Origin: Syntrophomonadaceae bacterium
GTDB taxonomy: Bacteria; Bacillota; Syntrophomonadia; Syntrophomonadales; Syntrophomonadaceae
NCBI GenBank assembly: GCA_012729495.1
Contig: JAAYCZ010000018.1
Coordinates: 1-64,000, forward strand
Direction: 5' to 3'
Length of the DNA: 64,000 bases
Positions 6,255-37,168 of this stretch are shown here, in pieces. The stretch's first letter is position 1; every line of letters begins with the position of its first letter. The translations under genes were made by a program, and so were the position numbers. The notes beneath the pieces were generated by a model, which saw only the letters and a program-made list of their open reading frames with translations, did not search any database and had not been told where the DNA came from.

Positions 6255-6364
6255 ACCCTTCTTCTCCCATCCAGACTGTAACTGTCGGCTTCGGAATCTA
6301 ACCGAATCCTGCCCTAAGGCTCGCGGGCTGTACCGCCGATAGGGAATTTCACCCTTCCCCGAAG
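6255..6364 (-). promoter_or_regulatory. FMN riboswitch (RFN element)
   Basis: Minus strand cttcggggaagggtgaaattccctatcggcggtacagcccgcgagcc...gattccgaagccgacagttacagtctggatgggagaag matches the RFN consensus; upstream of ribD. Confidence 0.95.
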
Positions 6365-6548
6365 AAAGTAATCGAAATATGTAGTTTTATTAACAGCCTT
6401 ATAGTAGCATTGTTTTTATGTAAAGGTCAAGATGTGCCGTTAAATTATCTATATATGACCATGTTTAACCTAATTAAATTTTCAGTAATCGCCAAAATAT
6501 TAATGTATGTATTGTCTTGATTAAATTTTTCAATCTATACCATTTATA

Positions 6549-34236: not shown

Positions 34237-35787
34237 CTATTTAGCATATTCTACAGAACGGGTTTCCCTGATGACCATAACTTTGATTTGACCGGGATAA
34301 TCCAATTCCTGTTCCACTTTGCGGGCAATATCCTTTACCAGGGTGATTGCCTCCAGGTCATCAATTTCATCCGGTTTAACAATGATTCTTATCTCCCGGC
34401 CGGCCTGAATGGCAAATGATTTATCCACTCCCGAGAATGAGTCGGCCAGATTTTCAAGTTTTTCCAGTCGCTTGATATAATTCTCCAGCGTTTCTCTTCT
34501 GGCCCCCGGACGCGAAGCGGAAACCGCGTCGGCAGCCTGTACCAGGATTGCTTCTATGGTATGCGGTTCAATATCTCCATGATGGGCTTCGATACCATGA
34601 ATAACTTCCTTGCTCTCCCGGTACTTTTTCGCCAGATCTATGCCGATTTCAACATGAGGTCCGGCGACTTCGTGGTCGACCGCCTTGCCGATATCATGCA
34701 GCAGACCGGATCTTTTGGCCAGAGCTACGTCAACATCAAGCTCCGCGGCCATAACCCCGGCCAGATGTGCCACTTCAATTGAATGTTTCAGCACATTCTG
34801 CCCGTAACTGGTACGATATTTTAATCTGCCCAGTAATTTTATCAATTCCGGGTGCAAACCATGTACGCCCACCTCAAAAGCAGCCTGTTCGCCGACTTCT
34901 CTTAATTCCTGATCCACTTCTTTCTTGGCCTTGTCCACCATTTCTTCTATACGGGCAGGATGAATACGGCCATCAGACACCAAATGCTCCAGTGCCAACC
35001 GTGCCGTTTCCCGCCTTACCGGGTCAAAGGCCGACAATATTACGGCTTCCGGGGTGTCATCAATAATCAGATCAACACCCGTAAGGGTTTCAAACGTACG
35101 AATATTGCGGCCTTCACGTCCAATGATACGGCCTTTCATCTCATCATTGGGCAGCGCTACAACCGATACCGTAGATTCAGATACGACATCTGCCGCACAA
35201 CGTTGTATCGCCAGAGAGACAATATTCTTGGCTCTCTTGTCACATTCCTCTTTAGCCTCTGCTTCCAGGGTTCTGATCATAACCGCCGTTTCCTGGCGAA
35301 TTTGTTGCTCAACATTGTTTAACAGCAATTCCTTGGCTTCTTCCGAGCTTAACCCGGAGAGACGCTCCAATTCTTTCAGCTGTTGGGTTAAAATAAGCTG
35401 CAAATCCTGCTGGGTCTTGTCAATATCCTTTTCTTTTTCAAAAAGACTGATTTCCTTTTTCTCAATGTTCTCCGATTTTTTTTCAACCAGTTCCTCTTTT
35501 TGCAGTACTCTTCTCTCGAGACGATCTAATTCTCTTCTTCTTTCCCGTAAATCCTTTTCAAACTCCTGGCGATTACGATGGATTTCATCTTTGGCTTCCA
35601 GGAGTAATTCTTTTTTTACGGCTTCCCCCTCTTTGGTTGCTTCATCTACGGTCCGCGCAGCCTCTTCTTCGGCGGACCCGATTTTACTCTCGGCTACAAT
35701 CTTTCTCAAGTAATAACCGGCAGCTATACCAACTGCCAATACAACTATACCAATCACATAACTTAATAACGGATCGATACTTTTCAC
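34237..35787 (-). CDS. rny: Ribonuclease Y (true start probably AUC at 35778, see findings)
   Basis: N-terminal TM, long coiled coil, KH domain ([15 protein letters not shown]), HD domain ([15 protein letters not shown]). Confidence 0.96.
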
Positions 35788-35825
35788 CTCCCTTTTTTTT
35801 TATAAAACTTATTTTTTTAAATGGA

Positions 35826-35850
35826 AAAGCCGAGTACAAAACCCGGCTTT
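35826..35850 (-). terminator. Terminator just upstream of rny
   Basis: Minus strand AAAGCCG-GGTTTTGTACT-CGGCTTTT. Confidence 0.65.
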
Positions 35851-36033
35851 CAGAAAACCTCACTATTTATTGTTTTCCGGAACCTGAAATAAGCTCATCT
35901 TTAAAAAGAGCTTTTCAGTTAAAGGGAAACAACTCACCCAACCTTATACGAGCACAAATATACAATCTATATTTATCAGCAGTTCGAAGAACTTGCTAAA
36001 ACTTCGACACGCCGTCCACCTTATCTAATGTTG
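35826..36033 (-). ncRNA. Candidate structured ncRNA or rny leader
   Basis: Own TTGACA/TATAAT-like promoter, several strong hairpins, ends in terminator; about 210 nt noncoding between recA and rny. Confidence 0.45.
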
Positions 36034-36039
36034 GAATAA

Positions 36040-36066
36040 ATTATATATATATAAATTAAGTGTCAA
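36040..36066 (-). promoter_or_regulatory. SigA-like promoter upstream of rny leader
   Basis: Minus strand TTGACA (36066-36061), 15-nt spacer, TATAAT (36045-36040); a TAATTT alternative gives a 17-nt spacer. Confidence 0.55.
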
Positions 36067-36136
36067 TATGGTTAAGCTTCCAAGTGAGGCTTTATCTTTT
36101 AGCCTACTTAGATTTTAGTTAGTTTCCCTGATAGTG

Positions 36137-37168
36137 TCAAGTTTCCTCTGTTTCGATCTTTGCGGCGGTTGGGAAAATTTTTTCATGAATCGTTTGCTGC
36201 AAAGTCTTATAAATCTCAGGATTATTTTTCAGATATTCCTTGGCATTTTCACGTCCCTGTCCCATCCGTTCACCTTCGTATGAATACCAGGAACCGCTTT
36301 TCTGGATAATGCTTAAATCACTGGCTACGTCCAACAGGTCACCCTCCTGGGAAATCCCAGTGCCATACATGATGTCAAATTCGACTGATTTGAAGGGCGG
36401 GGCAACTTTGTTTTTCACTACTTTAACCTTGGTGCGGTTACCGATCAGATCGTTCCCCATTTTTATGGCCTCACCCTTGCGTATTTCCAAACGCATGGAA
36501 GAATAAAACTTCAAGGCCCGGCCGCCGGTAGTTACTTCGGGATTGCCGTACATCACGCCTACTTTCTCACGGATCTGGTTTATAAAAACAACACAGCAGT
36601 TGGATTTGCCAATGTGGGCGGTCAGTTTGCGCAGCGCCTGGGACATGAGTCGAGCCTGCAGACCAACATGAACGTCTCCCATCTCACCATCCAGCTCAGC
36701 CTTGGGAACCAGTGCCGCTACCGAGTCGATTACGATAATATCGATGGCATTACTGCGTACCAGCGCTTCAGCGATTTCCAATGCCTGCTCCCCGCTGTCC
36801 GGTTGTGAAACCAAAAGGTTATTAATATCTACCCCTAATTGCTTGGCATACATCGGATCAAGTGCATGCTCGGCATCAATAAATGCGGCAATGCCTCCAT
36901 CCTTCTGCGCCTGGGCAATAACATGCAAAGTAACCGTGGTTTTGCCCGATGATTCCGGTCCAAATATCTCTATTACTCTTCCCCGCGGTAATCCGCCTAC
37001 ACCAGTAGCCAGATCCAAAGAAATGCAGCCGGTGGAAATTGATTCTACATTCATAGCTGTGGATTCGCCCAGTTTCATTATAGAACCCTTGCCGTAGGTC
37101 TTTTCAATGTTTCTGATGGTATTATTAAGCGCCTCAGTTTTACCCTGCATGATCTCGTTGTTATCCAA
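36137..37168 (-). CDS. recA: Recombinase A
   Basis: [54 protein letters not shown]. Confidence 0.99.

Follow-up and report, generated by a model that had tools for sequence, protein, structure and literature searches.

A putative transcription-attenuating leader RNA of the ribonuclease Y gene rny in Syntrophomonadaceae, with related elements in other Bacillota

Terminator/antiterminator riboswitches and attenuators of Bacillota contain a closing helix P1, a terminator and an alternative pairing of a terminator arm. The leader described here has the same layout (leader, closing P1, terminator and a candidate alternative terminator-arm pairing); unlike them it has no Rfam 15 match or known ligand, and the gene that would be controlled encodes an RNase. 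The 5' UTR of E. coli rne is a feedback leader of RNase E that acts through mRNA decay. It is likewise the structured leader of a main decay endonuclease, with a feedback use that is hypothetical here, whereas the enzyme, the RNA and the bacteria are different and its target is mRNA decay, not a leader terminator. Much of the mRNA decay in Bacillota is initiated by RNase Y, and the known feedback in B. subtilis is cleavage of its own mRNA: the enzyme cuts the 5' UTR of rny, reducing its own synthesis (PMC10303841). That UTR and the present leader belong to the same gene and share a long untranslated region (164 nt in B. subtilis) and a sigma-A promoter; the B. subtilis UTR differs in its control through mRNA decay, in that no terminator is mentioned, and in its AUG start codon (PMC10303841).

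In the literature on rny control (openly licensed papers, hence weak evidence) decay was described and attenuation was not found. RNase Y and recA were absent from the main text of the structured-RNA catalogues PMC2864571, PMC6429828, PMC8632094 and PMC11109978 and of the premature-terminator survey PMC2965389, all of them again openly licensed and of weak weight. Among transcription attenuators, a known kind, the leader is rated here as a new RNA family, and its gene is unexpected. A conserved terminator leader before rny in dozens of families would put the supply of the decay enzyme under transcriptional control too, and it provides a defined RNA and hairpin for asking how cells measure their own RNA-decay capacity.

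Leader between recA and rny

The window was a stretch of 64,000 nucleotides from a Syntrophomonadaceae bacterium (contig JAAYCZ010000018.1). On its minus strand recA (36137-37168; product matching TIGR02012) is followed by rny (product matching TIGR03319) and, farther on, by a TIGR00282 metallophosphoesterase gene. The recA-rny gap, described as free of ORFs in the first-pass annotation, did contain no plausible ORF on this strand; between recA and the leader the window showed no hairpin terminator, and no phage match was found. Coordinates are collected in Table 1.

Table 1. Features of the rny leader region (window coordinates).
Feature	Position	Strand	Remark
Promoter TTGACA (36140-36135), 17 nt spacer, TAAAAT (36117-36112)	36112..36140	-	overlaps the recA end
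Leader RNA	35825..36108	-	5' end estimated at 36108-36104, about 7 nt past the -10 box; runs as far as the terminator; region with homologues in 48 Syntrophomonadaceae genomes
5' element AGGCU (candidate antiterminator)	36101..36105	-	possible partner AGCC (35848-35845) in the 5' terminator arm; pairing weak here, stronger in relatives
P1, 5' strand	36083..36097	-
P2, 5' strand (GCUUAACC)	36070..36077	-
P3, 5' strand	36060..36068	-	includes TTGACA 36066-36061
A/U-rich motif AUAUAGAU, conserved, within the arm	35965..35972	-	hypothetical fit to the RNase Y cutting preference
P3, 3' strand	35945..35955	-
P2, 3' strand (GGUUGGGU)	35936..35943	-
Third hairpin (GUUGUUUCC ... GGAAAACAAU)	35869..35933	-	noted in the first-pass annotation
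P1, 3' strand	35852..35864	-	immediately 5' of the terminator
Terminator-like hairpin AAAGCCGGGU/ACUCGGCUUU	35825..35851	-	U tract short; homologous to the conserved CCGAGU..ACUCGG terminator
rny translation start: Shine-Dalgarno GGGAGG (35792-35787), probable start codon AUC (35778-35776)	35776..35792	-
rny, ribonuclease Y, gene behind the leader	34237..35787	-	listed GTG start inside the Shine-Dalgarno sequence

The promoter TTGACA-17-TAAAAT scored 11/12 in 47 of the 48 Syntrophomonadaceae leaders and 10/12 in one. A promoter with its -35 box at 36066-36061 had been proposed earlier; this site reads TTGACA in 1 of 33 tabulated family genomes (the window) and mostly TAGAC(A/T) in the relatives, since a strand of a conserved helix, P3, lies there, and the promoter that is kept is the one at 36140-36112. 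The RNA of the first-pass annotation started at 36066, inside P3, and therefore P1 and the true promoter were missed; the 5' strand of P1 lies in the part left out (36108-36067), and so does the antiterminator-like element. The full leader was folded at -80.4 kcal/mol (shuffles -61.1 +/- 4.6; z -4.16; 0 of 200 as good), and z was only -2.5 against shuffles from the earlier start.

P1 ties the 5' end of the leader to the bases before the terminator and encloses the P2/P3 arm and the third hairpin. Among the hairpins proposed earlier, the large 3' one (35933-35869) was recovered, and AGCAAGUUC-UUC-GAACUGCU was absent from the minimum-energy fold of the complete leader. The terminator expected just before rny corresponds to the terminator-like hairpin at 35851-35825, though its U tract is short (UUUUCC), and a simple terminator scan gave no call there.

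The GTG chosen for rny by ORF callers falls within the Shine-Dalgarno sequence; in 12 of 48 relatives it is not in frame. At proper Shine-Dalgarno spacing the start was AUA, AUU or AUC in 44 of 48 family genomes (L005-L053; AUG in 4) and in 69 of 100 sampled Bacillota genomes (L165-L264; AUG in 17). Judged from these positions, rny appears to be initiated at a near-cognate AUC, AUA or AUU codon, which recalls infC and pcnB of E. coli.

Covariation and distribution

Usable rny leaders were obtained from 48 of 54 Syntrophomonadaceae genomes. The 5' strand of each helix was paired with its own 3' strand and with 3' strands from other genera, and genera were permuted 5000 times; the permutation ignores deeper relatedness, and its counts are inexact probabilities. 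Pairing energies in the Syntrophomonadaceae leaders (own vs foreign, kcal/mol): P1, -16.7 vs -10.2; P2/P3, -12.1 vs -9.6; terminator, -12.4 vs -10.5; each with 0/5000 permutations. All three helices thus covary across the 48 leaders. For P2/P3 the alignment-based count on A1 gave support mainly via the slide control, with few double changes. UUGACCAUAUAGAC and GUCUGUUUAGGUUAAGGUGAG are conserved in sequence within the family; the base of P2/P3 is conserved in this one family, the inner arm is variable, and the arm is absent in sister families. A 5' hairpin P0 rivalling P1 was strong in genera g2 and g9, was not general and was rejected.

Model R2 was built from the 5' part and the P2/P3 arm of 18 relatives, the window being excluded. 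It recovered the window leader at E 1.8e-6 and gave E <= 1 in 38 of 54 family genomes (the window and 37 others), with all strong matches before rny; over 399 Bacillota genomes no match was found outside Syntrophomonadaceae. In the sister families of the order (order-level and class-level searches covered the same 63 genomes) the promoter at the recA end, a short P1 hairpin and the terminator ACCGAGUU(C/U)UGACUCGGU are kept; the large arm is mostly missing, with a short hairpin in its place.

A terminator of nearly fixed sequence (CCGAGUUUCUACUCGG) and P1 precede rny far beyond Syntrophomonadaceae. The pattern CCGAG-(3 to 12)-CUCGG with a T-rich tract, at most 170 nt from rny, was counted in 100 Bacillota genomes of 63 other families: it was present in 60 genomes and 37 families (shuffle mean 0.01; 1 in the stretch farther upstream). 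RCCGAGTTTCNACTCGGY was matched exactly 14 times in 150 whole genomes, each time within about 110 nt before rny. Outside Syntrophomonadaceae (42 leaders, 24 families) P1 pairing was -21.6 own vs -13.2 foreign (0/5000), and the leaders of Bacillota have in common GGGAGAAACUAGG at the 5' end, CUACCA in P1, CGGGUUU and UAUAUA(G)AU. The terminator motif was not found in most named records checked outside the family (Tissierella, Clostridium, Christensenella, several Bacilli) and was present in one Clostridiales MAG (L074). The element stood at rny in all cases examined. The stem and loop sequence of intrinsic terminators is normally not kept; its retention before one gene suggests a second constraint, e.g., an alternative pairing or a bound protein.

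In two Peptococcaceae MAGs (L077, L083) the leader of rny shows a strong promoter, its terminator (ACUGGUCUAACCAGU) is a different one, and a AACCUUUAAAGGUU hairpin may compete with a P1-like pairing.

Candidate antiterminator pairing and attenuation model

How well the 5' element pairs with the terminator's 5' arm was evaluated in the same manner. In Syntrophomonadaceae it was -7.6 (own) vs -6.8 kcal/mol (foreign), at 1/5000 permutations, and the family mean was -7.5 vs -4.1 +/- 0.26 for shuffled arms and -4.0 for other stretches of the same RNAs. Compensated changes were GCUUGGUU/AGCCAGGC in L052, GCUC/GAGC in genus g11 and AAUCUGG with CCGGGUU in L029-L031 and L033; the window has GGCU/AGCC only. 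In truncated transcripts the mean probability that the CCGAG core is paired with the first 18 nt was 0.76 within the family (shuffled arms 0.52); elsewhere real and shuffled arms did not differ (0.43 vs 0.42). A looser measure of antiterminator formation separated real from shuffled arms poorly (0.99 vs 0.79). Outside the family 18/5000 permutations (all leaders) and 144/5000 (long leaders) were counted. The antiterminator pairing is supported within Syntrophomonadaceae, is weak in the window and is only suggestive elsewhere. In the folded full-length RNA the terminator had a probability of 0.995 vs 0.09 for the antiterminator, and with the terminator dominant in the finished RNA antitermination would need kinetics or a stabiliser.

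In 23 of 58 leaders no more than 35 nt separate the end of the terminator from the rny start, and the sequence beyond the terminator is poorly promoter-like; a second promoter often has no room there, and therefore transcription of rny must read through the terminator. The arrangement found is that of an attenuator, i.e., promoter, leader and intrinsic-terminator-like hairpin before rny, with no second promoter. At the sequence level an attenuating cis-acting leader of rny, as had been proposed from the window letters, is well supported by its conservation and synteny, by covariation and by the missing second promoter, and the probability that it is a transcription attenuator of rny is put at about 0.6. 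Such a leader would probably set the amount of RNase Y made, and we infer that termination is regulated. Transcription would start from the promoter at the recA end, and the first bases and the P1 strand would pair, across about 200 nt of arms, with the bases just before the terminator. The antiterminator sits just outside P1 and would lengthen it, so that in Syntrophomonadaceae the P1 helix could extend into the 5' arm of the terminator. Where the extended P1 holds, the terminator would be blocked and rny transcribed; where it fails, the terminator would form and a leader RNA of about 280 nt would be released.

Signal, alternative readings and known RNA families

The signal tentatively preferred, at less than even odds, is RNase Y itself. 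Autoregulation of RNase Y through the leader is a hypothesis in which the enzyme would cut or bind the nascent A/U-rich arm before P1 closes, so that the 5' strand would be separated and termination favoured. RNase Y is membrane bound, which counts against such a signal. In A/U-rich RNA the enzyme cuts preferentially after G (PMC4608709). AUAUAGAU would satisfy this preference and occurs in 13 of 21 Syntrophomonadaceae genera vs 1.1 expected; AUAGAU occurs in 13 of 34 other families vs 4.0 expected, mostly 30-52 nt from the start. By these counts the A/U-rich motif is a lead as a putative RNase Y site; against it, several families have the motif without G (AUAUAU). The broader proposal, which we consider unlikely, is a widespread attenuator family of Bacillota in which the nascent leader would let RNase Y gauge how much of its activity is spare: left intact, the leader would zip its 5' end onto the terminator and rny would be on; cut before P1 closure, it would lose the strand and terminate; and with the near-cognate AUU, AUA or AUC start, RNase Y synthesis would be restricted at translation as well as at transcription.

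Read-through could instead be set by a metabolite, an ion or an RNA-binding protein other than RNase Y that binds the folded leader, either at the conserved stem-loop of the terminator or at the base of P2/P3. Many riboswitches likewise have a P1 that closes an arm before a terminator, UUGACCAUAUAGAC and GUCUGUUUAGGUUAAGGUGAG keep their sequence within the family, and the terminator stem and loop are kept in sequence across many families, which a plain terminator would not need. The arm, however, is variable inside and absent in sister families, unlike a ligand pocket, and the element is found only before rny, so that no gene context points to a ligand; such a riboswitch or protein-responsive attenuator is judged somewhat unlikely. 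Quite unlikely is an unregulated arrangement in which P1 guards the 5' end, the hairpin ends recA transcripts and rny receives constant read-through. The absence of a visible hairpin terminator between recA and the leader in the window and the weak U tract there would agree with it, but all relatives have a near-consensus promoter of the leader's own, and the terminator sequence is kept far beyond the order, whereas plain terminators vary in sequence.

The first-pass annotation had also considered a free small RNA. The terminated leader of about 280 nt would then be the product, and rny would live on leaky read-through; stable free RNAs, too, can have a P1 that joins both ends directly before a terminator, and the terminator dominates the full-length fold. 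Against this, in all genomes examined the element is kept before rny, another rny promoter would often not fit behind the terminator, and sister families have a short hairpin in place of the long arm. It is very unlikely that the main function is that of a free small RNA; the terminated leader would still be released as one, and attenuator and free RNA may be combined in a dual role.

Rfam 15 covariance models gave no family match in the window leader, in 14 relatives or in 20 Bacillota leaders, where only sub-threshold matches at chance level appeared; this agrees with the earlier comparison by eye, in which no likeness to the FMN, SAM, T-box, 6S or c-di-AMP consensus was recognised. 6S RNA (RF00013), named there as a possible identity, was searched for and rejected: there was no match in the leader at E <= 10, and in 48 of 54 family genomes 6S RNA maps to a different locus. 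The Syntrophomonadaceae genomes G001, G004, G024, G028 and G074 each had two 6S RNA genes that exceeded the gathering score. The window also holds an FMN riboswitch (6255-6370, minus strand) before riboflavin genes, an ordinary member of its family, and matches to group II intron domains were obtained downstream of rny in L016 (1029-1321).
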